From: Aphrocallistes beatrix
Lineage: Eukaryota; Porifera; Hexactinellida; Sceptrulophora; Aphrocallistidae
DNA length: 64,000 bases
NCBI GenBank assembly: GCA_963281255.1
Contig: OY725505.1
Span: 2,666,001-2,730,000, forward strand
Direction of reading: 5' to 3'
A program made the position numbers and the translations under genes. Below, in pieces: positions 19,030-47,779 of the stretch. Below the pieces are notes generated by a model, which saw only the letters and a list, made by a program, of their open reading frames with translations, was not told where the DNA came from and searched no databases. The first letter of the stretch is position 1; every line of letters starts with the position of its first letter.

Positions 19030-20205
19030 ATGAATTCATCTCATCTAACAACTTTCAATCACATTTCACAATTATCAGATAGCTACACTGCTATCATTTG
19101 CGCACCAATCATCCTTCTCAGTCAATCGTGTATCTTTACCCTTTCTTTGATATGGAGTTTCTACATTATTTACCAAATGATGAGAGACAAGCAGGTATTT
19201 AAAAGAATTAAAAAGTTGAAGAATACAATGCGTGAGTCGGAATTCATTAATATTGTAGAGAATGCAAACATCAGGCGCACTAAAAACCTATTATTTCTTG
19301 TAATATGCTTGTGTGAATACGGCATTTCTCTCTTAATATTAGCAGAAATAGTATTAAGTAATGTTTATCTGGTCGATCAAATGTTGTTACAATTGCCTCA
19401 TTCTCTCCCATACACTTCTGCCAGAAATCTTTTCTGCTTAGCTTTATTTTCCATATTAGAACGTATAAAAGTGATGTCATTTACTATGCTTTTTTACTCT
19501 ATAATAACATGCGCACGACTTCTGTCAGAATTCTTGAGTTGTAAATATCATTACTATGAAACTAAGCCTTATTTGTGTATCAGAATATTACTGTTATTCT
19601 GTGTTGTACTTGTACTAATGTTAATTGGAATATTTCGCCAATTGTTTCTATTATCGTTCATTGGAATTGTATTGGCTCTGATCTATCAATTCATACAACT
19701 CTGCTTTGCTGTGAAGAAACTAAAGAGATTACTTTACAAAAGACTGTTCGATGCACAGTACTTAGAATGTCAGCCTCCACATGTTGTAAACTATTTCAGA
19801 AGGGCACATTGGAACTTCAAATATGCTTCAACTATCCTCCTAATTGCTCTATTTCTACAAATACTGGGATATTCTATGTTATATATTTATTCTATCATCA
19901 GTATGATTGTCTATTTTCCCCGTACATGGCTGAATATTATACTGTATGGTACTACTAAAGAAGCAGCTCATGATTCTATCATTGCTGACAGATTTAATGA
20001 TTTTACTACTGATCTATTCTATGTTATTATTACTCTTGGAACAATTATGCAAGTCTTACCATACCTGTTGGTATCTATTCGGCTACTTTGCAGGAACATT
20101 GAAAATAAATTTGGAAAAATTGAGAACAAATATGATTGTACTCGGATAAAAGCGATGATAACAATAAATAATGATGTTTATCTGAGGAATCATCTTTTTG
20201 CCTAA
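19030..20205 (+). CDS. Receptor A1: family A seven-helix receptor, intronless
   Basis: A single-exon 391-residue protein. N-terminus MNSSH has a glycosylation sequon at residue 2. Hydrophobic segments: about 20-49, 87-110, 133-166, 183-203, 204-227, 266-297 and 328-354. Loops 51-86 and 228-265 and the C-terminus are rich in Lys/Arg, so by the positive-inside rule the N-terminus is outside, as in a GPCR. The TM4-TM5 extracellular loop is almost absent. The best conserved part is the TM5-TM6 loop (KRLFDAQYLECQPPHVVNYF). DRY and NPxxY motifs of rhodopsin-type receptors are missing. I do not recognise a named family; a chemosensory role is inferred only from tandem duplication, lack of introns and topology. 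It is the only family A member on the plus strand. Confidence 0.9.
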   Translation: MNSSHLTTFNHISQLSDSYTAIICAPIILLSQSCIFTLSLIWSFYIIYQMMRDKQVFKRIKKLKNTMRESEFINIVENANIRRTKNLLFLVICLCEYGISLLILAEIVLSNVYLVDQMLLQLPHSLPYTSARNLFCLALFSILERIKVMSFTMLFYSIITCARLLSEFLSCKYHYYETKPYLCIRILLLFCVVLVLMLIGIFRQLFLLSFIGIVLALIYQFIQLCFAVKKLKRLLYKRLFDAQYLECQPPHVVNYFRRAHWNFKYASTILLIALFLQILGYSMLYIYSIISMIVYFPRTWLNIILYGTTKEAAHDSIIADRFNDFTTDLFYVIITLGTIMQVLPYLLVSIRLLCRNIENKFGKIENKYDCTRIKAMITINNDVYLRNHLFA

Positions 20206-20446
20206 AGTAACATTTATATCTGAGAGATAAGTACTAAACTTTAGATTCCATTTTATCATTGTAATATTGATGCATTGTACTGAATATATGTAACAATTAA
20301 AGTAAAGTTTAGCAATCAATATTTACATATTAAACAGGGAGTATGTTGATGTCTTTAAATCTAAAGCTAGTTTACAAACATAAATACTACACTAAAGTTG
20401 TTTCTCTAAATTCGATTAAAAAAATGACACATTCCTGGGGCAACTT

Positions 20447-20970
20447 AGGGCTTAAAACTCGATTAATATGTATATATATATATATATATATATAAGCTGA
20501 TTTTTGGCATGTGGGAGTCCTTTGACAATGACTCCACTAAGTTCTGACCTCAGACAAAAATGTCGACTCATCATGGAATTACGACGTCATTATCATCTTT
20601 TCTAGAATTAGAAATTTCAGTTGTTCGACTATAACTCCGCTACTTGTATTTTAGGGGAGTGAAAGTTGAAATTTTAATAGACTGTGTATATTGATATACG
20701 TATCTCAAATACGATACAACTATCAACAAGAAATGATTACTCATTACTCTGTTATGACGTCATTATTTCGCATCAAAAAAATTTACAAATTGACAAATTT
20801 GATGGTTTTGTGAGTGATATCAATTATAACAGTAAGACAGACGCATTTCGAGATGTTATCTACCTTATGATTAATCGATGTGACCCTAGGCCCAAAGGGT
20901 TCCTCATGCGGACACAAAATGTCCGCCAGCCGCGCAGCGCAAGCAAGCGAAATGCGCTTGTGATTTTTAA
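20447..20970 (+). mobile_element. Helitron-like non-autonomous element, old copy
   Basis: Begins near TTAAAACTCGATTAATATG followed by (TA)n (20466-20494) and ends CAAGCAAGCGAAATGCGCTTG, a terminal hairpin shared with copies at 25393-27104 and 41269-41809. The first dozen bases have diverged from the TCCTTACTATT consensus. Non-coding. Confidence 0.65.
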
Positions 20971-21185
20971 AAATACAATGCACATTTTCTAGCGATTTTG
21001 GAAGAACAACTTTAGTGTATTTATTTCTGTAATACCAACTTGGGTTTTAAGACAACAACAACGTTTATTCATGTAAATATTTATTGTTTAATTGTATTCA
21101 TATATACAGTACAATACATAAAAATTACTCAATTATAAATTAGAATTTAAATTCTAGTACTTTTCTCTCTGACATGAATGGAACT

Positions 21186-22361
21186 TCAGGCAATGAAATG
21201 ATTCCTCAGATAAACATCATTATTTCTTGTTATCATCATTTTTATCTGAGTATAATCGTATTTGTTCTCAATCTTTCCAAACTTATTCCCAATGTTCCTG
21301 CAAAGTAGCCGAATAGATACAAACAAGTATGGTAAGACTTGCATAATGGTTGCAAGAGTAATAATGACATAGAACAGATCGGTAGTGACATCATTAAGTC
21401 TGTCTGCAAAGATAGAATCATGATGTGCTTCTTCAGTACCATACAGTATAATATCTAGCCATATACGGGGATAATAGACAATCATGGTGATGATAGAATA
21501 AATATATATAATAGCATATCCTAGTGTTTGTAGAAATATAGCAATTAGGAGGATAGTTGAAGCATATTTGAAGTTCCAATGTGCTCTTCTGAAATAGTTT
21601 ACAACATATCGAGGCTGACATTCTAAGTACTGTGCATCGAACAGTCTTTTGTAAAGTAATTTCTTTAGTTTCCTCACAGCGAAGCAGAGTTGAATGAATT
21701 GATAGATCAGAGCCAATGCGATTCCAATCAGTGAAAATAGAAACAATTGGCGAAATAGTCCGATCAACATGAGTACAGGTACAGCACAGAATGATAGTGA
21801 TATTTTGAGACATAAATAGGGCTCTATTTTATAGTAGTCATATTTACCACACAAGAAGTCTGTCAGAAGTCGGGCGCATGTTATTACAGAATAAAATAGC
21901 ATGAAAAATACCATTGCTGTTATACGAGGTGATACGGAAAATAGAGATTTGTGGAAAATTGTTCTGAGAGAAGTGTATGGGAGAGAATGAGGCCATTTAA
22001 ATTTTGGATTGTGTTTTCGATCAATAACCACTACAAGGACTAGATCTGCTAATATTGAAAGAGTAATGCCACATTCACACAAGCATATTACGAGAAAGAA
22101 TAGGTTTTTAGTGCGCCTGATGTTTGCATTCTCTACAACCTTATTGAATTCAAACTCATTCATTGTCTTCTTCATCTTTTTAGTCCTTTTAAGTATTTGC
22201 CTGTCTCTCATCATTTGGTAAATAATGTAGAAACTCCATATCAAAGGAAGATTAAATATACAGGATTGACTGAGAAAAATTATTGGCCCGCAAATGATAG
22301 CAGTATAGCTATCTGATAATTGGGCAACGTGATCAAAAGATGTTGTATGAGATGAATTCAT
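21186..22361 (-). CDS. Receptor A2: family A seven-helix receptor, intronless
   Basis: 391 residues, same layout as A1: MNSSHTTSFDHVAQLSDSYT at the N-terminus, seven hydrophobic segments, basic loops on the inferred cytoplasmic side, and the conserved segment FRQLFLFSLIGIALALIYQ followed by the FDAQYLECQPRYVVNYFRRA loop. The loop between TM2 and TM3 differs from A1 (VVVIDRKHNPKFKWPHSLPY), which is the most variable part of the family and faces outside in the predicted topology. Start fixed by family alignment and the TATA box 62-69 bp upstream. It converges with A1: the two 3' ends face each other across about 1 kb that holds a Helitron-like element. Confidence 0.9.
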   Translation of the reverse strand: MNSSHTTSFDHVAQLSDSYTAIICGPIIFLSQSCIFNLPLIWSFYIIYQMMRDRQILKRTKKMKKTMNEFEFNKVVENANIRRTKNLFFLVICLCECGITLSILADLVLVVVIDRKHNPKFKWPHSLPYTSLRTIFHKSLFSVSPRITAMVFFMLFYSVITCARLLTDFLCGKYDYYKIEPYLCLKISLSFCAVPVLMLIGLFRQLFLFSLIGIALALIYQFIQLCFAVRKLKKLLYKRLFDAQYLECQPRYVVNYFRRAHWNFKYASTILLIAIFLQTLGYAIIYIYSIITMIVYYPRIWLDIILYGTEEAHHDSIFADRLNDVTTDLFYVIITLATIMQVLPYLFVSIRLLCRNIGNKFGKIENKYDYTQIKMMITRNNDVYLRNHFIA

Positions 22362-22422
22362 TATCGTAAAATCAATTATAAATATGAAAATATTGAGATT
22401 GTATTATACTGAGACCAATTGG

Positions 22423-22430
22423 CTTATATA
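22423..22430 (-). promoter_or_regulatory. TATA box of receptor A2
   Basis: TATATAAG on the minus strand, 62-69 bp upstream of the A2 ATG, in the family's shared upstream block (to about 22830). Confidence 0.7.
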
Positions 22431-22839
22431 CATTAGAACTTTGCGAATGCTAACATTTCAACTTAGAAAAGGTTATTTTGAATGGGGATTTATATTCAGA
22501 TATTGTTTTACGTTACATAATTAACATTGAGATACCACTGGATGCTGTGACATTGTAATAGAAGAAGTAGGATTATCTATCCTCATGATTGTATCATAAA
22601 ATGTTCATAATTGGGTATTTATTTGAAATTTACCTGAAGATAAACCCTAACGGTACTTATCTTCAAAATACACAAACTGTACACTTTCTATTTCCTTGTT
22701 GCATCAGAGATAAAACGATGATATTCGATGATGAATGAATTGATACTTTTCTTTCAGCTTGCATGGAACCTCAGATGTTCTACGCATGCTGCAAGAAAAG
22801 AGGCTAAGCATGTAAATTAACCATTAAATATCTGATACA

Positions 22840-23240
22840 GGGGCTTCGCCACTAGGGAGTACGGGAGAGCAAATGCCTCCTCTCGGAACTTTTTCGTGTA
22901 TCCCCGGGTAATGCTCCAATGTATTTCCAGTATTTTGAACTCTCATCGAGATTTAATAAATAGATTTCAAAAATTATTGCAATTATTTGGTCCAAATTTG
23001 AGGAAGCTAGGCATATTTTGAAAATAATATTGTCACAACTTCCAGGGGCTCTGCCCCTGAACACATTGGATGCTCACAGTTTGGCGGTGTACCTTCATCA
23101 AAAAATATGTTTTGTGGTTTTCTCCTACTGCTAATTCGCCCTGCTTACCAATAAGAAAGATCCTTGCGACATCCCTGGTCTGATAGAGCTCATCAGGTTG
23201 TTGATAAAGAAGGTTTTCCCCCCTAAGATGAAAATGTTCG
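22840..23240. repeat. GC-richer repeat fragment upstream of A2
   Basis: Contains AACTTCCAGGGGCTCTGCCC and CCTTGCGACATCCCTGGTCT, which recur upstream of A4 (27410-27735), partly near 18540-18620 and 29580-29700, and near 51920-51970. Probably a dispersed transposon fragment that was duplicated together with the receptor units. No coding capacity recognised. Confidence 0.6.
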
Positions 23241-23603
23241 CTACTGCATAAGACTATATAGTTAGTCTAAATTGATGTGTCTGGGTCAATGAATGTTCAT
23301 ACAAGTGCCTTTTGCTCACTCTATGTCCGCAATACGAACCTGTTGATTTCAAGGGATAATGATTTTTAATTAAAAGATAAAATATATAATTTTTTAGAAG
23401 AGCAACTTTAGTGTACGCACTGCGCGTATTTAATATCGTAAACCAATTTTGGTTGAAAGATAACGTCAACAAACTTTATGTTCCCATTTATGTAATATTG
23501 ATCGTTTAATTATATACATAACTGCAGTACATTACATCAACATTACTCAATAATAAAATAGAATTTAAAGTCTAGTACTTTTCTTTCAGACATAAATGGG
23601 ACT

Positions 23604-24773
23604 TCATGCACTGAAATGATTCCTCAGATAAACATCATTATTTCTTGTTATCATCGTTTTTATCTGAGTGTAATCATATTTGTTCTCAATCTTCCCAAAC
23701 TTATTCCCAATTTTCCTGCAAAGTAGCCGAATAGATACCAACAGGTATGGTAAGACATGTAAAATGGTTGCAAGAGTAATAATGACATTAAATAGATCGG
23801 TAGTGAGATCATTAAGTCTGTCTGCAAAGATAGAATCATGATGTACTTCTTCATTACCATACAGTATAATATCTAGCCATATACGGGGATAATAGACAAT
23901 CATGGTGATGATAGAATAAATATACAACATAGAATATCCCAGCGTTTGTAGAAATAAAGCAATTAAGAGGATAGTTGAAGCATATTTGAAGTTCCAATGT
24001 GCTCTTCTGAAATAGTTTACAACATATCGAGGCTGACATTCTAAGTACTGTGCATCGAACAGTCTTTTGTAAAGTAATCTCTTTAGTTTCTTCACAGCGA
24101 AGCAGAGTTGAATGAATTGATAGATCAGAGCCAATACAATCCCAATCAGTGAAAATAGAAACAATTGGCGAAATAGTCCGATCAACAGGAGTACAGGTAC
24201 AATGCAGAATGACAGAAGTATCTTAATACACAAATAAGGCTTAGTTTCATAGTAATTATACTTACAACTCAAGAATTCTGACAGAAGTCGTGCGCATGCT
24301 ATTATAGAATAAAAAAACATTGAAAGTATTATTAATGTTATACGTCGTGATACGAAAAATAGAGAATGACGGAAAATATTTCTGAAAGAATAGTATGGGA
24401 GAGAATGTGGCCATTCTAATTTTTGATCGTGTTCTCGATCGATGATAAATACGAAATCTAGTAATATTGAAATAGGAATGCCGCATTCACACAAGCATAT
24501 CACGAGAAAGAATAGGTTTTTAACGCGCCTGATGTTTGCATTCTCTACAATCTTAGTGAATTCCGACTCACGCATTATATTCTTCAACTTTTTAGTTCTT
24601 TTAAATATTTGCTTGTCTCTCATCATTTGGTAAATAATGTAGAAACTCCATATCAAAGAAAGGGTAAATATACACGATTGACCGAGGAGGATGATTGGAA
24701 TGCAGATGCTACCAGTATAGCGATCTGATAATCGGGCAATGTGATCGAAAGATGTTGTATTGGATGAATTCAT
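23604..24773 (-). CDS. Receptor A3: family A seven-helix receptor, intronless
   Basis: 389 residues, intact. The N-terminus is MNSSNTTSFDHIARLSDRYT with the sequon kept. Seven hydrophobic segments are in the same places as A1, and the TM5-TM6 loop reads FDAQYLECQPRYVVNYFRRA. The first about 150 codons and the upstream region are almost identical to A5 (30010-31178), including the loop FIIDREHDQKLEWPHSLPYY, whereas the C-terminal half is closer to A2. This patchwork suggests gene conversion or unequal crossing-over. The function is inferred as for A1; no named family is recognised. Confidence 0.9.
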   Translation of the reverse strand: MNSSNTTSFDHIARLSDRYTGSICIPIILLGQSCIFTLSLIWSFYIIYQMMRDKQIFKRTKKLKNIMRESEFTKIVENANIRRVKNLFFLVICLCECGIPISILLDFVFIIDREHDQKLEWPHSLPYYSFRNIFRHSLFFVSRRITLIILSMFFYSIIACARLLSEFLSCKYNYYETKPYLCIKILLSFCIVPVLLLIGLFRQLFLFSLIGIVLALIYQFIQLCFAVKKLKRLLYKRLFDAQYLECQPRYVVNYFRRAHWNFKYASTILLIALFLQTLGYSMLYIYSIITMIVYYPRIWLDIILYGNEEVHHDSIFADRLNDLTTDLFNVIITLATILHVLPYLLVSIRLLCRKIGNKFGKIENKYDYTQIKTMITRNNDVYLRNHFSA

Positions 24774-24830
24774 TATCGTAAATCAATAATATGAAAAATA
24801 TTGAGATTGTTATATTGATGCCAATTGACA

Positions 24831-24837
24831 TTATATA
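24831..24837 (-). promoter_or_regulatory. TATA box of receptor A3
   Basis: TATATAA on the minus strand, about 58-64 bp upstream of the A3 ATG, at the family's usual position. Confidence 0.65.
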
Positions 24838-25208
24838 CATTAGAACTTTGTGAATGCTAACATTTCAACTTAGAAAAGGTTATTTTGAATGGGGATTTAC
24901 ATTCAGATATGATATTGGGCATTACATAAATAACTGAGCATCACTTGATGCTGACATTGTAAAGGAGGAAGTAGGATATTTTATCTTTATGTTTGCACGT
25001 ATCATAAAATGTCTATAATTGCGTATTTGATCTGAAATTTAAGATAAATCTTGAGGATACTTTACTTACATAAGTACACAAATTGTACACTTTCTATTTC
25101 TTTGTTGCATCAGAGCTATTAACAATGATGCAGTGTTATATTGACCCTCAAAGCACTGGTACGAATATGACCCAGAATTTGTTTTTACTCAACTCGAACT
25201 CGCCTTGC

Positions 25209-25378
25209 TTTGCAAAATTTGTCTCTCACCATTTGATAAATAATGTAGAAACTCCATATCAAAGAAAAGGTAAAGGTACACATTTGACTGAAAAAAAAAT
25301 TAAACTGCAAATGATTGCAGTACAGCTATCTGATAATCGGGCGATGTGATCAAAAGATGTTGCATGGGATGAATTCAT
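25209..25378 (-). pseudogene. Receptor A7: 5' fragment of a family A receptor
   Basis: From the ATG at 25378 the minus strand follows the first about 55 codons of family A: start, sequon region, TM1 and the MMRDK-like turn. The homology then stops at about 25209 and the sequence becomes the far upstream region of A3. Immediately before the ATG, at 25392/25393, the upstream region is interrupted by the Helitron-like element and resumes at 27105. The copy is dead, being both 3'-truncated and cut off from its promoter. Confidence 0.85.
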
Positions 25379-25392
25379 TATTGTAAAATCAA

Positions 25393-25418
25393 TCCTTACT
25401 ATTAAAACTCGATTAATA

Positions 25419-25461
<43 letters not shown>

Positions 25462-27959: not shown

Positions 27960-29126
27960 TTAGGCAATGAAATGATTCCTCAGATAAACATCGTTATTTC
28001 TTGTTATCATCGTTTTTATCCGAAAATAATCATATTTGTTCTCAATCTTTCCAAACTTATTCCCAATGTTCCTGCAAAGTAGCCGAATAGATACCAACAG
28101 GTATGGTAAGACATGCATAATGGTTCCAAGAGTAATGATTATATAAACTAGATCAGTAGTAAAATCATTAAATCTGTCAGCAATGATACAAGTATGTACT
28201 TCTTCAATACCATAGAGTATAATATCTAGCCATGTAAGGGGAAAATAGACTAGCATACTGATGATAGAATAAATGTATATAATAGAATATCCTAGTGTTT
28301 GTAGAAATAAAGCAATTAAGAGGATAGTTGAAGCATATTTGAAGTTCCAATGTGCTCTTCTGAAATAGTTTACAACAAATCGAGGCTGACATTCTAAGTG
28401 CTGTGCATCGAACAGTCTTTTGTAAAGTAATCTCTTTAGTTTCCTCACAGCGAAGCAGAGTTGAATGAATTGATACATCAGAGCCAATACAATCCCAATG
28501 AACGAAAATAAAAACAATTGGCGAAATAGTCCAATTAACAGGAATACAGGTACAATGCAGAATGACAGTAATATTCTGATACACAAATAAGGCTTAGTTT
28601 CATAGTAATCATATTTACAACTCAAGAATTCTGTCAGAAGTCTAACGCATGTTATTACTGAATAAAAAGACATGGAAAACAACATCACTCTTATTCGTCC
28701 GAATATGGAAAATAGAGCTACGTGGAAAACATTTCTGACACAAGTGTATGGGAGAGAATGAGGCCGTTGTAACATTAGATCGACCAGATGAACATTACCT
28801 AATACTATATCTACTAATATTAAGAGAGAAATGCCATATTCACACAAGCATATTACAAGAAAGATTAGGTTTTTAGTGCGCCTAATGTTTGCATTATCTA
28901 AAATCTTATTGAATTCCGACTCACGCATTGTATTCTTCAACTTTTTAATTCTTTTAAATACCTGCTTGTCTCTCATCATTTGGTAAATAATGTAGAAATT
29001 CCATATCAAAGAAAGGGTAAAGATACACGATTGACCGAGAAAAATAATTAAACTGCAAATGATAGCAGTATAGCTATCTGATAATCGGGCGATGTGATCG
29101 AAAGATGTTATATGAGATGAATTCAT
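27960..29126 (-). CDS. Receptor A4: family A seven-helix receptor, intronless
   Basis: 388 residues, intact. MNSSHITSFDHIARLSDSYT leads into TM1. The TM2-TM3 outer loop (NVHLVDLMLQRPHSLPYTCV) resembles A1 rather than its neighbours. The TM5-TM6 loop shows two unusual changes, FDAQHLECQPRFVVNYFRRA. The C-terminus ends NDVYLRNHFIA like A2. Upstream it shares the block beginning TTATAATAAAATATTGAGACC with the A7 remnant. Role inferred as for A1. Confidence 0.9.
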   Translation of the reverse strand: MNSSHITSFDHIARLSDSYTAIICSLIIFLGQSCIFTLSLIWNFYIIYQMMRDKQVFKRIKKLKNTMRESEFNKILDNANIRRTKNLIFLVICLCEYGISLLILVDIVLGNVHLVDLMLQRPHSLPYTCVRNVFHVALFSIFGRIRVMLFSMSFYSVITCVRLLTEFLSCKYDYYETKPYLCIRILLSFCIVPVFLLIGLFRQLFLFSFIGIVLALMYQFIQLCFAVRKLKRLLYKRLFDAQHLECQPRFVVNYFRRAHWNFKYASTILLIALFLQTLGYSIIYIYSIISMLVYFPLTWLDIILYGIEEVHTCIIADRFNDFTTDLVYIIITLGTIMHVLPYLLVSIRLLCRNIGNKFGKIENKYDYFRIKTMITRNNDVYLRNHFIA

Positions 29127-29175: not shown

Positions 29176-29179
29176 CATT

Positions 29180-30009: not shown

Positions 30010-31178
30010 TTAGGCAATAAAATGATTTCTCAGATAAGCATCGTTATTTCTTGTTATCATCGCTTTTATCTGAAAATAATCATATTTGTTCTCAATCTTT
30101 CCAAACTTATTCCCAATGTTCCTGCAAAGTAGCCGAATAGATACAAACAGGTATGGTAAGACTTGTAAAATGGTTCCAAGAGTAATGATTATATAAACTA
30201 GATCAGTAGTAAAAGCTTCAGATATTTCAGTAAAGATAGAAGAATGAAATGTTTCGTCAGTACCATACAGTATAGTATTCAGCCATGTGTGAGGAAAATA
30301 GACAAACATGGTGATGATGGAATGGATATATAATATAGAATATCCCAGCATTTGTAGAAATAGTGCAATTAGGAGGATAGCTGAAGCATATTTGAAGTTC
30401 CAATGTGCTCTTCTGAAATAGTTTACAACATATAGAGGCTGACATTCTAAGTACTGTGCATCGAACAGTCTTTTGTAAAGTGATCTCTTTAGTTTCCTCA
30501 CAGCGAAGCAGAGTTGAATGAATTGATACATCTGAGCCAATAGAATCCCAATGAATGAAAATAGAAACAACTGCCGAAATAGTCCAATTAACATTAGTAC
30601 AAGTGCAATACAGAATGACAGTAATATTCTGATACACAAATAAGGCTTAGTTTCATAGTAATCATATTTACAACACAAGAATTCTGACAGAAGTCGTGCG
30701 TATGCTATTATAGAGTAAAAAAACATAAAAAGTATTATCACTGTTATACGTCGTGATATGAAAAATAGAGAATGATAGAAAGAATTTCTGAAAGAATAGT
30801 ATGGGAGAGAATGTGGCCATTCTAATTTTTGATCGTGTCCTCGATCGATGTTAAATACGAAATCTAGTAATATTGAAATAGGAATGCCACATTCACACAA
30901 GCATATCACGAGAAAGAATAGGTTTTTAACGCGCCTGATGTTTGTATTATCTACAATCTTAGTGAATTCCGACTCACGCATTATATTCTTCACTTTTTAG
31001 TTCTTTTAAATATTTGCTTGTCTCTCATCATTTGGTAAATAATGTAGAAACTCCATATCAAAGAAAGGGTAAATATACACGATTGACCGAGGAGGATGAT
31101 TGGAATGCAGATGCTACCAGTATAGCGATCTGATAATCGGGCAATGTGATCGAAAGATGTTGTATTGGATGAATTCAT
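30010..31178 (-). pseudogene. Receptor A5: family A receptor with a one-base frameshift
   Basis: From ATG 31178 the frame reads MNSSNTTSFDHIARLSDRYT and on to FKRTKK, then hits a stop. The sister gene A3 has CTTCAACTTTTTAG where A5 has CTTCACTTTTTAG (near 30992), so one A is missing. After the shift the frame is open for 327 more residues to the normal stop at 30010. All seven hydrophobic segments are present in the two pieces. Either a very recent inactivation or a sequencing error in a short homopolymer. The C-terminal part has its own variation (TDETFHSSIFTEISEAFTTD). Confidence 0.8.
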
Positions 31179-31235
31179 TATCGTAAAATCAATAATATGA
31201 AAAATATTGAGATTGTTATTTGATGCCAATTGACA

Positions 31236-31878: not shown

Positions 31879-33018
31879 TTATCTTTGCAGATAAGCTTTG
31901 TTATTTCTTGATATCAGCGTTTTGATCAGAGTATGATTATATTTATTTTCAATCTTCCCAAATTTATTCCTGATGTTACAGTAAAGTAATCGAATCGATA
32001 CCATAATGTAAGGAATGACATGTAGACTGGTTCCAACAGTAATAATAACATAAACTAGATCGGTAATAGCATTATTACTATTATCAGCGAAGGAAAAGTG
32101 ACGAAATTGTTCTTCAGTACCATATAGTATAGTATTCAGCCATGTGTGAGGAAGATAGACAATCGTGGTGATGATGGAGTAAGTGTATAACATGGAATAT
32201 CCCAGTGTTTGTAGAAATAAGACCACTACAAGAATGATTGAGGCATATTTGAAGTTCCAATGTGCTCTTCTGAAATAGTTTACAACATGTGGAGGCTGAC
32301 ATTCTAAGTACTGTGCATCGAACAGTCTTTTGTAAAGTAATCTCTTTAGTTTCCTCACAGCGAAGCAGAGTTGAATAAATTGATAGATCAGAGCCAATAC
32401 AATCCCAATGAACGAAAATAGAAACAATTGGCGAAATATTCCAATTAACATTAGTACAGGTACAACACAGAATGACAGTGATATTCTGATACACAAATAA
32501 GGCTTAGTTTTATAGTGATTATATTTACAACACAAGAATTCTGTCAGAAGTCGTACGCATGCTATTATAGAATATAAAGACGTTGAAAGCAGTATTACTG
32601 CTATACGTCGTGATATTGAGAAAAGAGAATTGTAGAAAGAATTTCTGAAATTATGAAATTTTGGATCGTTCTTGTGACTAGTATTACTTATTAGAATATT
32701 CGCAAGCATTGAAAGAGAAATACCACATTCACTCAAACAAATTATCAAGAAAAATTTACTTTTGATTTGCCTGATATATGAATTCTCTAAAATATTATTG
32801 AATTCCAATTCACACATTATATTTTTCGACTTTTTAGCCTTTTTAAGTATTCGTTCATCATTTAGCATGTGATAAACAATGTAAAAGAACCATATTAAGG
32901 AAAGAGAAAATCTACAAAACTCATTGAAAAAATCAATTAATGTGATCAAGGTAGTATAGTAACTATTTGAGTTTTGAGCAATAATATTATCTAAAGGCAC
33001 GATATGAGATGAATTCAT
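31879..33018 (-). CDS. Receptor A6: divergent family A seven-helix receptor
   Basis: 379 residues, intact. The first about 140 residues differ strongly from the other A proteins (MNSSHIVPLDNIIAQNSNSY; short TM2-TM3 loop SNTSHKNDPKFHNF), yet from TM4 to TM6 it is nearly identical to A1 (LMLIGIFRQLFLFSFIGIV, FDAQYLECQPPHVVNYFRRA). The C-terminus is shorter, ending NNKAYLQR. The abrupt change from divergent to near-identical sequence within one exon suggests gene conversion of the 3' part. It is the last family A gene and is divergent from B1. TATA-like ATATAAAAG lies about 65 bp upstream (33083-33091). Confidence 0.9.
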   Translation of the reverse strand: MNSSHIVPLDNIIAQNSNSYYTTLITLIDFFNEFCRFSLSLIWFFYIVYHMLNDERILKKAKKSKNIMCELEFNNILENSYIRQIKSKFFLIICLSECGISLSMLANILISNTSHKNDPKFHNFRNSFYNSLFSISRRIAVILLSTSLYSIIACVRLLTEFLCCKYNHYKTKPYLCIRISLSFCVVPVLMLIGIFRQLFLFSFIGIVLALIYQFIQLCFAVRKLKRLLYKRLFDAQYLECQPPHVVNYFRRAHWNFKYASIILVVVLFLQTLGYSMLYTYSIITTIVYLPHTWLNTILYGTEEQFRHFSFADNSNNAITDLVYVIITVGTSLHVIPYIMVSIRLLYCNIRNKFGKIENKYNHTLIKTLISRNNKAYLQR

Positions 33019-34755: not shown

Positions 34756-35865
34756 ATGGAAAACCAGACGGAACAGAGCTACACATATTACGCGACGCTC
34801 CTGAACACTATTTTATTATTCAGTAACATTCCTTTCATCATCATCACAATATTCGTCATTGCCTATTATAGCTATAGAATAGTCGCGCTGTTTCGAGCAA
34901 GAAACATCCCTGATGAAAGTTTGAGTAAGAAAGAGTTTAGGAAGACCAATATCCTAGTCTATAAGTTCATATTGCTAATCCTATTAATTGAGTTGTCTTC
35001 AAACATTCTCAGAGCTGTATCTGGATGGGTTAATGCTCAATTCCCTACTTACCAGCTACAGTCCATTCCACTGACAAATTCATGTAGAGTAAACGTCAGG
35101 ATGGACTTTCAAATGGAAATGTATCCAAATGGATTGTTCGCTTATTTTCCTAGTATTTTTGAGATATTTATCATTCAATTATTGCAACCAATTGTATCTC
35201 TTCTACTTTACATTCTTAGAAGAAAATACTTGTCTCTTCCTTACAAAAATGTATGCAAACGTTGGTTGATTACAATTCTCATTAGAAGTTGCATTATATT
35301 TCTACTCTTTTTGTTCTATCAAACATTTTATTTTGCAACTTTTCTCATAACTTTATCCTTTCTCATCGATTTTATCATTTATTTGATAAACTCAAAGCGA
35401 TTCCATTCACTTCTGAAGAACCGGAAAGAAGTTGCAAGATTGCATTCATCTCCTGAGGAATACAGAGACAAGTCCAGAGTTCTATCTCAATACAAAGTAA
35501 CTTCTCTATACACTACAGTCGTATTCTTCATTCTAACGCTGACATACATCTTTTGGGGAATAAAATTAAACATTCATGGCTTCGTGAGAATTCTCTGTAC
35601 CATTAATCTAATCACGTTAGGATACTCACCTTTAATCTTCTACGATTCTACAACATTACATATTGCACACAAAGTGTCCTTTTCCTTTTTCTTCATCATA
35701 GAATCCCTGGACTATCTCTACCAGATACTCATATCGTTTGCCTATTGTACTATCTGCTTTGGAATAAGCATACGCTTGTGTAGACGAGTGAAAAGATTCA
35801 GAGAAATCAACACTTCGATTCGACCCTTAGTTACTAACTATCACAGTACGCTTTATCTGCAATGA
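34756..35865 (+). CDS. Receptor B1: family B seven-helix receptor, intronless
   Basis: 369 residues from the ATG at 34756 (MENQTEQSYT); an upstream in-frame TTG is not a eukaryotic start. The sequon NQT is at residue 3. Hydrophobic segments: about 12-40, 66-88, 132-154, 168-188, 189-212, 250-268 and 318-341, with a further apolar stretch at 278-296. Loops 41-65 and 213-249 and the tail after 341 are basic and so probably cytoplasmic. The TM5-TM6 loop (LLKNRKEVARLHSSPEEYRD) is the family signature. No DRY or NPxxY. The layout matches family A, suggesting distant common origin, but direct sequence identity is low. No named family recognised; chemoreceptor-like function is inference. Confidence 0.9.
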   Translation: MENQTEQSYTYYATLLNTILLFSNIPFIIITIFVIAYYSYRIVALFRARNIPDESLSKKEFRKTNILVYKFILLILLIELSSNILRAVSGWVNAQFPTYQLQSIPLTNSCRVNVRMDFQMEMYPNGLFAYFPSIFEIFIIQLLQPIVSLLLYILRRKYLSLPYKNVCKRWLITILIRSCIIFLLFLFYQTFYFATFLITLSFLIDFIIYLINSKRFHSLLKNRKEVARLHSSPEEYRDKSRVLSQYKVTSLYTTVVFFILTLTYIFWGIKLNIHGFVRILCTINLITLGYSPLIFYDSTTLHIAHKVSFSFFFIIESLDYLYQILISFAYCTICFGISIRLCRRVKRFREINTSIRPLVTNYHSTLYLQ

Positions 35866-37851: not shown

Positions 37852-38961
37852 ATGGAAAACCAGACGGAGCATAGCTCTTCATATTGCGTGACGCTCTTGA
37901 ACACTATTTTATTATTCAGTAACATTCCTTTCATCATCATCACAATATTCGTCATTGCCTATTATAGCTATAGAATAGTTGCTCTGTTTCGAGCAAGAAA
38001 CATCCCTGATGAAAGTTTGAGTAAAAAGGAGTTTAGGAAGACCAATATCCTAGTCCATAAGTTCATATTGCTAATCCTACTAACTGAGTTGTCTTCAAAC
38101 ATTCTCAGAGCTGTATCTGGCTTGGTGTATGGTCAATTCCCTATTTACCAGTTACAGTCTATTCCACTGACAAATTCATGTAGAATTGATGTCAGGATGG
38201 ACTTTCAAATGGTATTATTCCCTAATGGATGGTTTGTTCATTTTCCTAATTTACTCAAGATTTTTATCATCCAAACTTTGCAGCCAACTGTCTCTCTTCT
38301 CCTTAACATTCTCAGAAGAAAATACTTGTCTCTTCCTCACATAAATATATGCAAACATTGGTGGATGACAATACTTATTAGAAATTGCATTATATTTCTA
38401 CTTTCTTTGTTCTATCAAACATTTTATTTTGCAACTTTTCTCATAACTTTATCCTTCCTCATCGATTTTATCATTTATTTGATAAACTCAAAGCGATTCC
38501 ATTCACTTCTGAAGAACCGGAAAGAAGTTGCAAGATTGCATTCATCTTCTGAGGAATACAGAGACAAGTCCAGAGTTCTATCTCAATACAAAGTAACTTC
38601 TCTATACACTACAGTCGTATTCTTCATTCTAATACTGACATACACCTTTTGGGGAACAAAATGGATCATTCATGGCTTCGTGAGAATTCTCTGTACCATT
38701 AATCTAATCACGTTAGGATACTCACCTTTAATCTTCTACGATTCTACAACATTACATATTGCACACAATGTGTCCTTTTCCCTTTTCTTCATCGAACGAT
38801 TCCTGGACTATCTCTACCAGATACTCATATCGTTTGCCTATTGTACTATCTGTATTGGAATAAGCATACGCTTGTATAGACGAGTGAAAAGATTCAGAGA
38901 AATCAACACTTCAATTCGGCCCTTAGTTACTAACTATCACAGTACGCTTTATGTGCGATGA
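37852..38961 (+). CDS. Receptor B2: family B seven-helix receptor, intronless
   Basis: 369 residues from ATG 37852 (MENQTEHSSSYCVTLLNTIL). The first 90 residues and residues 200-330 are nearly identical to B1, but residues 95-180 (end of the TM2-TM3 outer loop, TM3 and the loop to TM4) differ markedly: RIDVRMDFQMVLFPNGWFVH, FPNLLKIFIIQTLQPTV, HINICKHWWMTILIRNC. This is the most distinct member of family B. Intact, with the family signature in the TM5-TM6 loop. Confidence 0.9.
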   Translation: MENQTEHSSSYCVTLLNTILLFSNIPFIIITIFVIAYYSYRIVALFRARNIPDESLSKKEFRKTNILVHKFILLILLTELSSNILRAVSGLVYGQFPIYQLQSIPLTNSCRIDVRMDFQMVLFPNGWFVHFPNLLKIFIIQTLQPTVSLLLNILRRKYLSLPHINICKHWWMTILIRNCIIFLLSLFYQTFYFATFLITLSFLIDFIIYLINSKRFHSLLKNRKEVARLHSSSEEYRDKSRVLSQYKVTSLYTTVVFFILILTYTFWGTKWIIHGFVRILCTINLITLGYSPLIFYDSTTLHIAHNVSFSLFFIERFLDYLYQILISFAYCTICIGISIRLYRRVKRFREINTSIRPLVTNYHSTLYVR

Positions 38962-40905: not shown

Positions 40906-41191
40906 ATGGAGAATCAGACGGAGCATAACTCTTCATATTACGCAACGCTCTTAAACACTATTTTATTATTCAGTAACATTCCTTTCATCATCATCACAAT
41001 ATTCGTCATTGCCTATTATAGCTATAGGATAATCGCTCTGTTTCGAGTAAGAAACATCCCTGATGAAAGTTTGAGTAAGAAAGAGTTTAGGAAGACCAAT
41101 ATCCTAGTCTATAAGTTCATATTGCTAATCCTACTAAATGAGTTGTCTTCAAACATTCTCAGAGCTGTATCTGGCTGGGTGTATGGTCAAT
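40906..41191 (+). pseudogene. Receptor B3: family B receptor truncated by transposon insertions
   Basis: ATG 40906 opens MENQTEHNSSYYATLLNTIL and the frame follows family B through TM1 and TM2 to WVYGQ (about 95 codons). Homology then ends abruptly at 41191 in Helitron-like sequence. What follows on the far side (from 41882) is not the rest of the gene but unit upstream sequence, so the 3' part was also deleted or lost by recombination. Confidence 0.85.
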
Positions 41192-41221
41192 GCACGGCAG
41201 TTTCTTCAATCAATTCGTTAC

Positions 41222-41806: not shown

Positions 41807-41858
<52 letters not shown>

Positions 41859-41881
41859 TAATCGAGTTTTAATAGTAAGGA
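41192..41881 (-). mobile_element. Helitron-like element (outer copy, 3' truncated) interrupting B3
   Basis: On the minus strand it begins TCCTTACTATTAAAACTCG at 41881, with host base A before it. The undisturbed target is seen at 33537 and 45665 (AATCAAGATGTAATACTG-like). Its (TA)n tract received a second copy (41269-41809). The outer copy ends near the CTGCCGTGC junction at 41192 and lacks its 3' part. Confidence 0.7.
41269..41809 (-). mobile_element. Helitron-like element (complete inner copy, 541 bp)
   Basis: Read on the minus strand: starts TCCTTACTATTAAAACTCG (41809) and ends GCGCGAAGCGCGCTTG (41269), with the terminal hairpin CAAGCGCG/CGCGCTTG. Flanks on both sides are TA repeats of the outer copy, so insertion was again between A and T with no recognisable duplication. 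Internal sequence includes repeated ATGACGTCAT. Short open frames over it are not genes. Confidence 0.7.
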
Positions 41882-42656
41882 TGTAATACTGATGTAATAG
41901 TGGAGAGAAAGATGATATTTTATATTCATGGTTATATGCTAATTGTTTTGTGCTATCATTTCATCCAACCTAAAGATAAACCCCTGAAGCTTACTACACA
42001 GGCTAACTCTTCCTATTTTATTGTTGAACCATATATGTTACAATGAAGCAATAACATCATCTCTACGCCTATGAATGTGAGTTTTATTCATGACAAACTC
42101 ATGACCAAATTTCTGAACATTTGTTTAATTAACCTCTGGCCACGATTTGTTTGGTTTAACCCTACTTTGGTTAGGAATGTTGAATTGAAAGTGAATTGAA
42201 AATGAAAATGAAAGTGGATTTTTTTCTATTTATACCTTTGACCCCAAGTCATCTTAGGGTTTTAATTAAATACCAAAAGTATAGAGGAGAGGTCAAAACG
42301 TAGTTAGACGTTTTGACTCGAAATTAATATATTTCGTTTATCATCACTATATGTAAATAACAAAGATTGAGTATTCACAATGGAAGGAAGATATTATATA
42401 TTGCAATTACTGTTATTACTTCAAAACCAAAAAAAAAGTCCAAATTTGTGAGAAGCCATTGATGCCTATGCACACTTTCTGACTGTTAGTGTTAGGTCTT
42501 GAACTTTGAACTTCAACACTCTGCGCATGCATAATTATAACATGGAATCGGCAGTATATATGTGAACATTGTGTGAAATGCTCTCTGTTCAACGGAAAAT
42601 TTCCAACCTGAAACCATTTCCAGTTGATGAGACAGTATATTTTAATCATAAAATAT
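41882..42656. other. Unit flank upstream of B4, no gene
   Basis: Non-coding sequence duplicated at 45660-46235 upstream of B5. No gene seen. Confidence 0.5.
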
Positions 42657-42730
42657 GTAGAGTTTTGATCAGAAATGTGGAATTTGTATTAAGTAGTATT
42701 GAAATTCCACATTTCTGATAAAAATTCTAC
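42657..42730. repeat. Inverted repeat upstream of B4
   Basis: About 29-bp imperfect arms (GTAGAGTTTTGATCAGAAAT and its complement) around a 16-base loop; counterpart of 46236-46313. Confidence 0.65.
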
Positions 42731-42834
42731 CTTAGTTTCCTGACATAAATTTCTCGTTCTGTCATTTTTGATTAAAATGAGAGTAATAGCATGTATATAT
42801 CCCTAAACCTAAATGTAATATATGAGGTATTCAA

Positions 42835-43030
42835 TAACTTTAGTGACATAATGTTAAATAATTGAATGTAATACTCCAGTCATACTCAGTAATGGGAGTA
42901 ATCAGTTCTCAAATATCCTTAGGTTATCTTCAGGGAAATATCACAGAATATATATTCTCAGTTGATGAATAAGTGTAAGTAACATTTTCAACTGATAACA
43001 TTATTCAGAGAAGCGATAGATATATAAAGG
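42835..43030 (+). promoter_or_regulatory. Family B upstream block and TATA box of B4
   Basis: AACTTTAGTGACATAATGTT-type block ending in TATATAAAGG (43021-43030), 51-60 bp before the B4 ATG. Confidence 0.65.
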
Positions 43031-43080
43031 CTTTTAATTTATACTCATAAATAATAGAATATTAAATTTCTGTATTGAAC

Positions 43081-44190
43081 ATGACAAACCAGACGGAGCA
43101 TAGCTCTTCATATTACGCAACGCTCTTGAACACTATTTTATTATTCAGTAACATTCCTTTCATCATCATCACAATATTCGTCATTGTCTATTATAGCTAT
43201 AGGATAGTCGCTCTGTTTCGAGCAAGAAACATCCCTGATGAAAGTTTGAGTAAGAAAGAGTTTAGGAAGACCAATATCCTAGTCTATAAGTTCATATTGA
43301 TAATCCTACTAATTGAGTTGTCTTCAAACATTCTCAGAGCTCTAGAAGGCTGGGTGTATGGTCAATTCCCTACTTACCAGCTACAGTCTATTCCACTCAC
43401 AAATTCATGTAGAGTAAACGTCAGGATGGATTTCCAAATGGAAATGTATCCAAATGGATTTTTCGCTTATTTTCCTAGTATTTTAGAGATCTTTATCATT
43501 CAATTATTGCAACCAATTATCTCTCTTCTACTTTACATTCTCAGAAGAAAATACTTGTCTCTTCCTTACAGAAATGTATGCAAACGTTGGTTGATTACAA
43601 TACTCATTAGAAGTTGCATTATATTTCTTCTTTCTTTGTTCTATCAAACATTTTATTTTGCAATTTTTCTCATAACTTTATCCTTCCTCATCGATTTTAT
43701 CATTTATTTGATAAACTCAAAGCGATTCCATTCACTTCTGAAGAACCGGAAAGAAGTTGCAAGATTGCATTCATCTCCTGAGGAATACAGAGACAAGTCC
43801 AGAGTTCTATCTCAATACAAAGTAACTTCTCTATACACTACAGTCGTATTCTCCATTCTAACGCTGACATACATATTTTGGGAAATAAAATGGATCATTC
43901 ATGGCTTCGTGAGAATTCTCTGTACCATTAATCTAATCACGTTAGGATACTCACCTTTAATCTTCTACGATTCTACAACATTACATATTGCACACAAAGT
44001 GTCCTTTGTCCTTTTCTTCATCGAACGATCCCTGAATTACCTCTACCAGATACTCATATCGTTTGCCTATTGTACTGTCTGCTTTGGAATAAGCATACGC
44101 TTGTATAGACGAGTGAAAATATTCAAAGAAATCAACACTTCGATTCGACCCTTAGTTACTAACTATCACAGTTCGCTTTATGTGCAATGA
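43081..44190 (+). CDS. Receptor B4: family B seven-helix receptor, intronless
   Basis: 369 residues from ATG 43081 (MTNQTEHSSSYYATLLNTIL); sequon NQT kept. Closest to B5 and B1. Differences are concentrated in the TM2-TM3 region (ALEGWVYGQFPTYQLQSIPL) and the C-terminal quarter (HKVSFVLFFIERSLNYLYQI). All seven hydrophobic segments and the TM5-TM6 loop signature are present. Upstream region nearly identical to B5 for several hundred bases, so the pair duplicated recently. Confidence 0.9.
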   Translation: MTNQTEHSSSYYATLLNTILLFSNIPFIIITIFVIVYYSYRIVALFRARNIPDESLSKKEFRKTNILVYKFILIILLIELSSNILRALEGWVYGQFPTYQLQSIPLTNSCRVNVRMDFQMEMYPNGFFAYFPSILEIFIIQLLQPIISLLLYILRRKYLSLPYRNVCKRWLITILIRSCIIFLLSLFYQTFYFAIFLITLSFLIDFIIYLINSKRFHSLLKNRKEVARLHSSPEEYRDKSRVLSQYKVTSLYTTVVFSILTLTYIFWEIKWIIHGFVRILCTINLITLGYSPLIFYDSTTLHIAHKVSFVLFFIERSLNYLYQILISFAYCTVCFGISIRLYRRVKIFKEINTSIRPLVTNYHSSLYVQ

Positions 44191-44640
44191 GAGATTCTCA
44201 ATCTTCCCTGGATCTTAAAATCTAAAGATTGAGCTATAAACTTTACTATTTGTGCTCTACTTAAACTCATTGAAATAATTTCTTTGTATTGTAAGTATTT
44301 AAACTTTTAATACATTTTAGACTGACTGGTATTATGTATAGGACTTAATTCAAAAAATTATAAATCATTATAATTTCATGATCAGTATAGTGTTTTCTTG
44401 GGGTGGACGTGGGGGGCTCAGCCCCCTTTTTTTGCTAGGGTCATAGACGCCGAACCCTGGGGCGGCTGGGGAACTCGAGCCCCTCCCCTCGATTTGGGCG
44501 CAATACAAAATTTAGGGCTGAGCTCCCTTGGAACCCTGAAATTGTCCTCAGATTTCGAAAATTTCGGCGCTCCTGGCTCATCCCGAGGGGGGCGCTCCCC
44601 TCAGTCACTATTCAATTCTCCAAAATAAAAACAATTACCT
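44191..44640. other. 3' flank of B4 and a GC-rich patch
   Basis: 44398-44628 is much more GC-rich than its surroundings, with strings such as GGGGGGCTCAGCCCCC and GAGCCCCTCCCCTCG. An open frame across it is low-complexity and looks like the body of an old transposon. No gene called. Confidence 0.45.
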
Positions 44641-44829
44641 TGTTATTAATTAGGAGAGTAAAATTAAAAATTTCTTATTCAATCTATAATGGCAAGCTTT
44701 GCTCTTGATGCAAACTAGTTGAAGATCGTTATCTGAATATTTTATAATGAAAGTACATGAATAAAACAATTTATACTACAAAGATTTGATGATGAGACAA
44801 AAAACGATTTCATAGAAATTTTTGGTTAC

Positions 44830-45115
44830 TTGATACAGCAAAAATGGTAGTATATTGTTTCAAAAATAATTTATTCCCCAGCCCAAAACCATAATACTTC
44901 AAATGAATCAATATTCATGTTTTTTTGTACGTAGAATTTAATGGAGAGATCAGTTTTAATCTAAATTTGCTCAGAAATGAAATAGAGCCTTAGGGAACCC
45001 AAAAATCACGTTCAAAGGCAGAATCCTGAACGAATGCACTTAAATCAGATGTAGGAACCACAATAGATGTCCTGTCACAGCAACTCTAAGTTGATCCCCT
45101 GAGGTATACAATGGA
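44830..45115. repeat. Dispersed repeat fragment, related to 48720-49040
   Basis: Shares GATCAGTTTTAATCTAAATT, AATCACGTTCAAAGG and GATCCCCTGAGG-type strings with the interior and right arm of the element at 48361-49118. Here the terminal inverted repeats are missing. Confidence 0.6.
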
Positions 45116-45402
45116 TAAATCGAGAATATTTTGTTTCCAATAACTGGTGCGAATATGAAGGTTTTTTCTTGCTCTATTTCAAACTCGATATGCTCTGCTT
45201 TATTCAACGCGGAGTCCCATTATTGGATGCTTCAGGTTGCCAAGTGAATAATGTGATTTGAAATATTATTATTATTATTATTATTATAGCCAATTTCAAA
45301 TGTCGAAATTATTCAGATAATTCCAAGTACTTTTTGTTAAAAATAAACTTTGGTACTCTTAAACAGAAAACTCAATGATCCTAGCTTTTTAATATTAAGA
45401 TA

Positions 45403-45568
45403 TCCTTACTATTAAAACTCGATTCATGTTTGTGTATATATGTGTGGGTACACATATGTAGTATATCTGTAACGAATTGATTGGAGAAACTGACCGGTAT
45501 AGAAAGCTGATTTTTTTGGCTTGTGGGAGTCTTTTGGCTATGGATCCACTAAGTTCTGACCTCAGACC
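45403..45568 (+). mobile_element. Helitron-like element, 5' fragment
   Basis: Starts TCCTTACTATTAAAACTCG after a host A, follows the family for about 165 bases (TAACGAATTGATTGGAGAAAC, GTGGGAGTCTTTTGGCTATG) and stops at CCTCAGACC. The 3' hairpin is missing. Confidence 0.65.
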
Positions 45569-46235
45569 AACGAGTAAAATCTTATTTTGAATATGTAATT
45601 CATAAATTCATGGTTATACAAGTACGTATATCGTAATACATAAATATAACAAGTACATTTAATCAAGACGTAATACTGATATAGTAATAGTAGAGAGAAA
45701 GAGGATATTTTATTTTCATGGTTACATGCTAATTGTTTTGTGCTATCTTTTCATTCAACATTTACTTAAAGATAAACCCCTGAGGTTTATTACACAGACT
45801 GTACTCTTCCTATTTTATTATTGTATCATAAATGTTGGCAATGAAGCATTAATAACATTATCTCTATGTCTATGAATGTGAGTTGTATTCATGACCAACT
45901 CGTGACCAATTTTCTGGACATTTGTTCATACTCTGGTCACCATTTGTTTTGTTTAAATACCATCAGAATAGGGAAGAGTCAAAACGTAACCGTTAGACGT
46001 TTTGTAGTCACTACCAAAAAATGTTCAAATTTTTAAGACATGATGCTTATGCGCACTTTCTGACTGTTAGTGTTAGGTATTGAACTTTGAAATTCAGTAT
46101 ACTGCGCATGCATAATTATAACATGGAATCGGTAGGATATATGTGGATATTATGTGAAATGCTCTCTGTTCAACGGGAAATTTCCAACCTGAAACCATTT
46201 CTAGTTGATGAGACAGTATATTTTAGTCATAAAAT

Positions 46236-46313
46236 ATGTAGAATTTTGATCAGAAATATGGAATTTGTATTAAGTAGTATTGAAATTCCACATTTCTGAT
46301 CAAAATTCTACAT
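46236..46313. repeat. Inverted repeat upstream of B5
   Basis: About 31-bp arms (ATGTAGAATTTTGATCAGAA and its complement), one internal mismatch, 16-base loop. Same position relative to B5 as 42657-42730 has to B4. Confidence 0.7.
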
Positions 46314-46419
46314 TGGTTTCCTGACATCAATTTCGTTCTGTCATTTTTAATTAAAATGAGAGTAATAGCATGTATACTATATCCCTAAACCTAAATGTAT
46401 GGAATTAGGAAGTATTAAA

Positions 46420-46619
46420 CAACTTTAGTGACATAATGTTAAATAATTGAATGTAATACTCCAGTGTCATACTCAGTAATGAGAGTAGTCAGTTCTCTAA
46501 ATATTCCTTAGGTTATCTTCAGGGAAATATCACAGAATATATATTCTCAGTTGATGAATAAGTGTAAGTAACATTTTCAACTGATAACATTATTCAGAGA
46601 AGCGATAGATATATAAAGG
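46420..46619 (+). promoter_or_regulatory. Family B upstream block and TATA box of B5
   Basis: Same block as for B4, ending in TATATAAAGG (46610-46619), 51-60 bp before the B5 ATG. Confidence 0.65.
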
Positions 46620-46669
46620 CTTTTAATTTATACTCATAAATAATAGAATATTAAATTTCTGTATTGAAC

Positions 46670-47779
46670 ATGACAAACCAGACGGAGCATAGCTCTTCAT
46701 ATTACGCAACGCTCTTGAACACTATTTTATTATTCAGTAACATTCCTTTCATCATCATCACAATATTCGTCATTGCCTATTATAGCTATAGGATAGTCGC
46801 TCTGTTTCGAGCAAGAAACATCCCTGATGAAAGTTTGAGTAAGAAAGAGTTTAGGAAGACCAATATCTTAGTCTATAAGTTCATATTGCTAATCCTACTA
46901 ATTGAGTTTTCTACAAACATTCTCAGAGCTCTGGAAGGCTTGGTGTATGGTCAATTGCCTACTTACCAGCTACAATCTATTCCACTCACAAATTCCTGTA
47001 GAGTAAATGTCAGGATGGACTTCCAAATGGAAATGTATCCAAATGGATTTTTCGCTTATATTCCTAGTGTGTTAGAGATGATTATCATTCCATTTTTGCA
47101 ACCAATTGTCTCTCTTCTACTTTACATTCTTAGAAGAAAATACTTGTCTCTTCCTTACAGAAATGTATGCAAACGTTGGTTGATTACAATACTCATTAGA
47201 AGTTGCATTATATTTCTACTCTCTTCATTCTATCAAACATTTTATTTTGCAACTTTTCTCACAACTTTATCATTCCTCATCGATTTTATCATTTATTTGA
47301 TAAACTCAAAGCGATTCCATTCACTTCTGAAGAACCGGAAAGAAGTTGCAAGATTGCATTCATCTCCTGAGGAATACAGAGACAAGTCCAGAGTTCTATC
47401 TCAATACAAAGTAACTTCTCTATACACTACAGTCGTATTCTTCATTCTAATACTGACATACACCTTTTGGGGAACAAAATGGATCATTCATGGCTTCGTG
47501 AGAATTCTCTGTACCATTAATCTAATCACGTTAGGATACTCACCTTTAATCTTCTACGATTCTACAACATTACATATTGCACACAAAGTGTCCTTTGTCC
47601 TTTTCTTCATCATAGAATCCCTGGAATATCTCTACCAGATATTCATATCGTTTGCTTATTGTACTGTCTGCTTTGGAATAAGCATACGCTTGTATAAGCG
47701 AGTGAAAAGATTCAGAGAAATCAACACTTCGATTCGACCCTTTGTTACTAACTATCACAGTACGCTTTATGTGCAATGA
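46670..47779 (+). CDS. Receptor B5: family B seven-helix receptor, intronless
   Basis: 369 residues from ATG 46670 (MTNQTEHSSSYYATLLNTIL). Distinct residues again cluster between TM2 and TM4: ALEGLVYGQLPTYQLQSIPL and FFAYIPSVLEMIIIPFLQP. From residue 200 on it is nearly identical to B2 and B4, with FILILTYTFWGTKWIIHGFV shared with B2 rather than its closest relative B4, an exchange pattern expected from gene conversion. Intact. Last member of the cluster. Confidence 0.9.
   Translation: MTNQTEHSSSYYATLLNTILLFSNIPFIIITIFVIAYYSYRIVALFRARNIPDESLSKKEFRKTNILVYKFILLILLIEFSTNILRALEGLVYGQLPTYQLQSIPLTNSCRVNVRMDFQMEMYPNGFFAYIPSVLEMIIIPFLQPIVSLLLYILRRKYLSLPYRNVCKRWLITILIRSCIIFLLSSFYQTFYFATFLTTLSFLIDFIIYLINSKRFHSLLKNRKEVARLHSSPEEYRDKSRVLSQYKVTSLYTTVVFFILILTYTFWGTKWIIHGFVRILCTINLITLGYSPLIFYDSTTLHIAHKVSFVLFFIIESLEYLYQIFISFAYCTVCFGISIRLYKRVKRFREINTSIRPFVTNYHSTLYVQ

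Follow-up and report, generated by a model that had tools for sequence, protein, structure and literature searches.

A superfamily of intronless genes for predicted seven-helix proteins, candidate chemoreceptors, in the glass sponge Aphrocallistes beatrix

We analyze a 64,000-nucleotide stretch of the genome of the glass sponge Aphrocallistes beatrix (assembly GCA_963281255.1, contig OY725505.1, positions 2,666,001 to 2,730,000; hereafter "the window," C19:2666001-2730000 among the 28 contigs and 100.5 Mb of the genome examined), in which two clusters of intronless genes, families A and B, encode proteins predicted to cross the membrane seven times. A preliminary description, made from the letters of the window, had treated A and B as two families; by profile comparison they are branches of a single superfamily with at least four families (A-D) and several hundred intronless genes, which most likely represents an undescribed class of seven-transmembrane (7TM) proteins. 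Our favored reading, to which we assign a probability of about 0.55, is that the A and B proteins are chemoreceptor-type seven-helix receptors of the plasma membrane and that the superfamily is apparently restricted to its lineage. To our knowledge, the large chemoreceptor radiations recognized so far are in animals with nervous systems. If our reading holds, neurons are not required for the evolution of a large environmental sense, which can draw on a receptor stock other than the rhodopsin type, and these genes become concrete material for studying how a syncytial sponge samples water, bacteria or its own kind. A universal glutamate in the second transmembrane segment (TM2) and a motif in inner loop 3 would be direct targets for tests.

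Genes, homology and membrane layout

The window holds nine intact, ATG-to-stop, single-exon frames of 369-391 amino acids (aa) in two clusters, five of family A and four of family B. Open frames and family searches agree on A1 (19030..20205, plus strand, 391 aa) and, on the minus strand, A2 (21186..22361, 391 aa), A3 (23604..24773, 389 aa) and A4 (27960..29126, 388 aa), and likewise on B1 (34756..35865), B2 (37852..38961), B4 (43081..44190) and B5 (46670..47779), all on the plus strand and 369 aa long. A6 (31879..33018, minus strand, 379 aa), identified by its open frame, is the most divergent A gene of the window, with runs of silent sites in its core that are common to A6 and A1-A4. Broken copies lie among them: a 5' fragment of an A gene recognized by sequence match (25219..25378, minus), A5 in two overlapping frames (30010..31235, minus; open frames and family search) and B3, of which the family search matched only the first 98 codons (40906..41199, plus). 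The family A search placed broken A fragments outside the main cluster (11419..11882, minus). The inventory of nine intact genes and four broken copies given earlier is therefore the one we find. The ratio of nonsynonymous to synonymous rates (dN/dS) is 0.41-0.51 for the 10 pairs of intact A genes of the window and 0.42-0.60 for the 6 pairs of intact B genes, which shows that the frames are coding and constrained rather than due to chance. Neighboring genes (an amine oxidase, an adhesion G protein-coupled receptor [GPCR] and a C2H2 zinc-finger gene) are split into separate frames of exon size whose domain matches are partial, so that intronlessness is a trait of the A and B genes and not of the region.

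Counted across the genome, the radiation extends far beyond the window. With E up to 1, protein queries of families A and B found 59 and 111 places, respectively. Family C, a third with single-exon genes, was found adjoining a B-type gene on contig C4, and a fourth, D, reached from C, gave at least 103 matches, each with E below 1e-77, when 103 of its 411 candidates were scored. After merging of 359 typed rows, A-D occupy at least 329 distinct places on 20 of the 28 contigs, these copy counts being lower bounds. At least 247 of the 329 combine an open frame no shorter than 350 aa with a match over 250 codons or more, and in 214 of those 247 the match row is free of stops; 241 of the 329 have a neighbor within 20 kb.

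The case for a single superfamily comes from comparing family profiles with block-shuffled controls (40 shuffles per pair for A-B, A-C and B-C, and 25 for each pair with D). Scores against the shuffle maximum were 74.1 versus 33.6 for A-B, 62.9 versus 24.3 for A-C and 37.4 versus 31.0 for B-C; for family D, represented by three sequences, they were 81.1 versus 25.1 with A, 70.1 versus 25.4 with B and 195.2 versus 39.9 with C. The alignments span 344 (A-B), 328 (A-C) and 347 (B-C) columns. The earlier remark that A and B share a layout but little direct identity stands as to identity, which the profile alignment puts at 17%; their homology nevertheless runs along most of the two proteins. When 54 members (21 A, 23 B, 7 C and 3 D) are aligned jointly, every one of the 53 rows with a letter at the TM2 position carries the glutamate. 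A leucine of inner loop 3 is shared by all 54, and the column three places after it holds an arginine in 91%; an arginine at the end of TM3 is invariant in A and B (44/44) and is not aligned in C and D.

Mean hydropathy reveals six hydrophobic blocks at like positions in A, B and C/D, with segment limits drawn by hand. The fourth block has double length and is best read as TM4 and TM5 joined by a turn of about three residues, giving seven helices. Under this reading, lysine and arginine are in excess on the side opposite the N-terminus in 21/21 A, 23/23 B and 9/9 C/D members (six of the seven C, with L074 left out, and three D). When the double block is taken as one helix, which was tried for A and B, more charge falls on the N-terminal side in 20/21 and 22/23 members. 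The N-terminus is thus predicted to lie outside in 53 of 53 members, with basic inner loops and in no case a cytoplasmic N-terminus, and the layout proposed in the preliminary description is borne out by hydropathy and charge. N-terminal sequons occur in 17/21 A and 13/23 B members, at densities of 4.65 and 4.14 per 100 aa versus 0.11-0.38 in inner loops 1 and 3; the C-terminus has 1.07 (A) and 1.71 (B) per 100 aa, with sequons in the tails of 7/21 A and 12/23 B members, and 9/9 C/D members have sequons in outer loop 1.

The loop between TM4 and TM5, at about three residues and without cysteine, bears out the reported lack of a real second outer loop, and the DRY and NPxxY signatures, also reported missing, were not found. 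Where TM3 ends, family B has an LRRxxLxxP stretch. Outer loops 1 and 3 each carry a cysteine in many members of B, C and D and in hardly any of A; a disulphide between these two loops, in place of the usual one between TM3 and loop 2, is possible.

Duplication, conversion and a transposon with a receptor hairpin

Self-comparison of the DNA shows local copies of ~1.0-2.0 kb, most of which include flanking sequence, and the tandem copies are therefore products of DNA duplication. We tested for gene conversion by runs of silent-site identity, with 2000 permutations and Bonferroni correction. Conversion-like tracts were found in 4 of 10 window A pairs, all involving A6, and, among nine B-type genes of contig C8, in 14 of the 36 pairs. 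All 14 fall within the 28 pairs of a tight tandem group, with 0/8 for the pairs with a distant copy, L046, and the pairs among A6 and three dispersed A genes gave 0/6 significant. In both families the tracts fall within the part from TM3 to inner loop 3 (residues 157-266 in A, 137-195 in B); the pair L049 and L050 shares a longer one (residues 40-223). Together, these patterns of sequence identity point to conversion of the core among tandem copies.

Divergence is distributed unevenly along the proteins. Among A1-A4, dN peaks in outer loop 1 (0.328, versus 0.035-0.226 elsewhere); its minimum, 0.035, is that of inner loop 3, whose dS is low too (0.023). Among B1, B2, B4, B5 and L043, the peaks are TM3 (0.167), the C-terminus (0.122) and outer loop 1 (0.119), and in a third group (L061, L063, L065 and L067) they are the N-terminus (0.649) and outer loop 1 (0.261).

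Seven loci combine the start of a B-type gene, which in complete cases runs to about codon 190, with an inverted copy of its first ~115 codons or a remnant of that copy. Five of the seven elements are complete, with terminal inverted repeats, identical 9-bp flanks and lengths of 1189-1354 bases (L056 1294-2482, L058 991-2306, L082 199-1487, L083 194-1461, and L057 1101-2454, a weaker case as its flanks resemble the terminal repeats); those at L055 and L084 are truncated. The source is of the type of L050 (C8:4650034), to which four copies compared are 93-96% identical over 615-618 bases; 278 of 1084 L050 21-mers are found unchanged in one copy. By its sequence structure, the element is a non-autonomous DNA transposon carrying the first half of a B-type receptor. 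We take its 9-bp duplication and gene capture to recall Mutator-like Pack elements. The predicted fold of its transcript is a near-continuous hairpin (-883 kcal/mol for 1206 nt, a value without a shuffled control), and on this model the element is a possible source of double-stranded RNA. That a nerveless animal has built a large chemical sense from a 7TM class unrelated to any known GPCR and silences part of the repertoire through this hairpin RNA is a speculation that we consider unlikely.

Several observations accompany these genes. Five family C genes form a regular array at C8:3992485-4013495, with every second copy ~9.98 kb apart, probably a young tandem amplification; an EF-hand open reading frame adjoining L036 is unrelated to the receptor genes. 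In the window, the A fragment at 11419..11882 lies at the edge of a satellite-like array (11920-16215, repeat step ~23 bases), beyond which is a Mariner-type transposase fragment (16374-17090, plus strand; Transposase_1, 1.2e-6). The adhesion GPCR exons (3619-8763, plus) match C-type lectin, GPS and 7tm_2, with an Ig-like stretch below the cut-off, and the C2H2 zinc-finger exon (61800-62099, plus) matches zinc-finger families and resembles the finger array of Glass. Rfam and tRNA scans of the window found nothing. The mitochondrial contig (C28; 17,996 bases) encodes COX1 with TGA for tryptophan (11 TGA and 0 TGG in the stretch counted), has AGA at positions that are serine in animals, and includes atp9 (Pfam ATP-synt_C, 3.4e-14). 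In glass sponges, AGR codons stand for serine, and the COX1 and COX2 stretches look sponge-like. Taken together, these mitochondrial features point to Hexactinellida, and a bilaterian origin was set aside on the strength of the COX stretches and atp9.

Known families and competing explanations

No described family was recovered by profile search. With a limit of E 10 for the nine genes of the window and of E 1 for 21 A and 23 B members, no Pfam 7TM family was matched; the same held for six of seven C members, three D members and four consensus sequences, in scans where HMMER filters drop most matches above E 0.1. The models without a match in the scanned A-D members include 7tm_1 (class A rhodopsin), 7tm_6 and 7tm_7 (insect Or/Gr), the 7TM_GPCR_Sr serpentine chemoreceptor models of nematodes, and 7tm_2 and GPS (adhesion/secretin). 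Three profiles, of A, B and C+D, retrieved no PDB chain by sequence at E up to 10. Candidate matches below the cut-off and not family-wide were set aside as chance: DUF3040 in A1 (1.4e-3), and rve_2 (0.016-0.027), MWFE and SecE, each confined to two B copies that are close to one another. In such a scan, a single-frame rhodopsin-type GPCR of the same genome (L070 1345-3198) matched 7tm_1 at 2.9e-28; it is of interest in itself because orthologs of bilaterian rhodopsins are reported, in the passages cited, as undetected in sponges (PMC12716839). A first look through the genome with PF00001 gave one match from six candidates and is too coarse for counting rhodopsin-type genes.

The alternative that we regard as possible, though less probable than the favored reading, is that the families belong to a known GPCR class, e.g., sponge rhodopsin-like receptors, but have diverged strongly, beyond the reach of profiles. 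Their topology is as in GPCRs, and the LRRxxLxxP of family B resembles, in what we take to be the same register, DRYxxIxxP. Nematode chemoreceptors, moreover, are reported to have expanded within their lineage from the rhodopsin superfamily (PMC11526382). However, no Pfam 7TM family matches the A-D members scanned, while L070 scores clearly in such a scan, the A, B and C profiles show no resemblance to L070 (scores of 18.1-24.1 against this single sequence), and a real second outer loop is missing. We consider it very unlikely that the proteins are subunits of ligand-gated channels, functionally like insect Or/Gr. The N-terminus of insect Or/Gr proteins is inside, whereas here it is predicted outside in 53/53 members, and neither 7tm_6 nor 7tm_7 matches; these points outweigh, in our view, the large, fast-evolving, intronless and tandem nature of the families and the impulse conduction system that glass sponges possess (PMC10280926). 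Hardly any probability, finally, falls to the view that this multigene family encodes membrane transporters, enzymes or self-recognition proteins rather than receptors. No functional domain is known, the invariant acidic residue of TM2 could serve transport, and Aphrocallistes has a tandem expansion of mostly single-exon AIG1-domain genes, linked in the passages cited to pathogen recognition (PMC10282587). Yet the TM2 glutamate is the only charged in-helix residue among columns conserved at 70% or more (54 members), the conserved arginines lie where TM3 ends and within inner loop 3, and variation among A1-A4 peaks in outer loop 1.

Several of our own results weigh against the chemoreceptor reading. 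Hydropathy alone gives six blocks, and the count of seven depends on charge parity; a structure model of B, from four aligned rows, has a mean predicted local distance difference test score (pLDDT) of 37.7 and a predicted template modeling score (pTM) of 0.20; none of the GPCR sequence marks tested was found. An N-terminal sequon occurs in 0/9 C/D members, whose N-terminus is very short, and B-C, with its narrow margin over the shuffles, is the weakest link of the superfamily. The dN/dS of outer loop 1 is 1.18 in A, 0.33 in B and 0.51 in the third group, and that of inner loop 3 is 1.53 (A) and 1.55 (B), where dS is near zero. There is no clear sign of positive selection, as ratios of 1 or more occur in outer and inner parts alike and some dS values are zero.

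The preliminary description spoke of a lineage-specific chemoreceptor-type radiation. A large radiation of lineage type, without a match to a known family in Pfam or to a PDB chain by sequence, is what we find; chemoreception is the most likely function by analogy, given its size, tandem turnover, intronless genes, outside N-terminus and partly variable outer loop. Relatives outside this genome were sought in viral contigs, where a family B search gave 39 pattern matches and no relative; since the search was confined to these, lineage restriction is something that we infer. On the chemoreceptor reading, the proteins would sit at the cell surface, where the outer half (outer loop 1, TM3 and outer loop 3) would contact varied ligands, and the strongly kept inner face (the L..R motif of inner loop 3 and the basic C-terminus, with the TM2 glutamate) would relay the signal, with a G protein as its most likely recipient. 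Copies would arise by tandem duplication of DNA, gene conversion would hold their cores alike, and birth-and-death would leave the pseudogenes. The paper on the glass sponge Oopsacas minuta reports G proteins, with eight G-alpha genes (PMC10280926).

Comparison with known systems

Among the matches listed in open-licence literature on glass-sponge GPCRs, sponge intronless receptors and sponge chemoreceptor expansions, there is no such family. The Aphrocallistes paper, which gives published glass-sponge genomes of 61 and 80 Mb, reports one scaffold with three expanded clusters, for two of which no function is predicted, and by term count its main text does not contain the word "receptor" (PMC10282587). 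Those clusters could include relatives of A-D.

The genes of nematode chemosensory GPCRs (NEMCH) have introns. NEMCH are lineage-limited, as A-D apparently are, and likewise comprise very many 7TM genes, but they originate in the rhodopsin superfamily (PMC11526382). Their Pfam models do not match here. The vertebrate OR, TAAR, V1R and T2R genes stand in tandem and evolve by birth-and-death. They are also single-exon genes (PMC11526382). No sequence relation to the sponge families is seen by Pfam. The insect Or/Gr superfamily is likewise a large 7TM radiation without GPCR marks, but its membrane orientation is opposite to the one predicted here, and no profile matches. Sponge-specific receptor clusters have been described among the GPCRs of Amphimedon (Krishnan 2014), but as members of known GPCR families in the passages cited (PMC4302439). 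The choanoflagellate catalogue of 18 families mentions, in the part cited, no comparable expanded intronless family, which sets it apart by description and not by sequence; one of its families, GPRch3, is unlike any other and is also present in sponges (PMC12716839).

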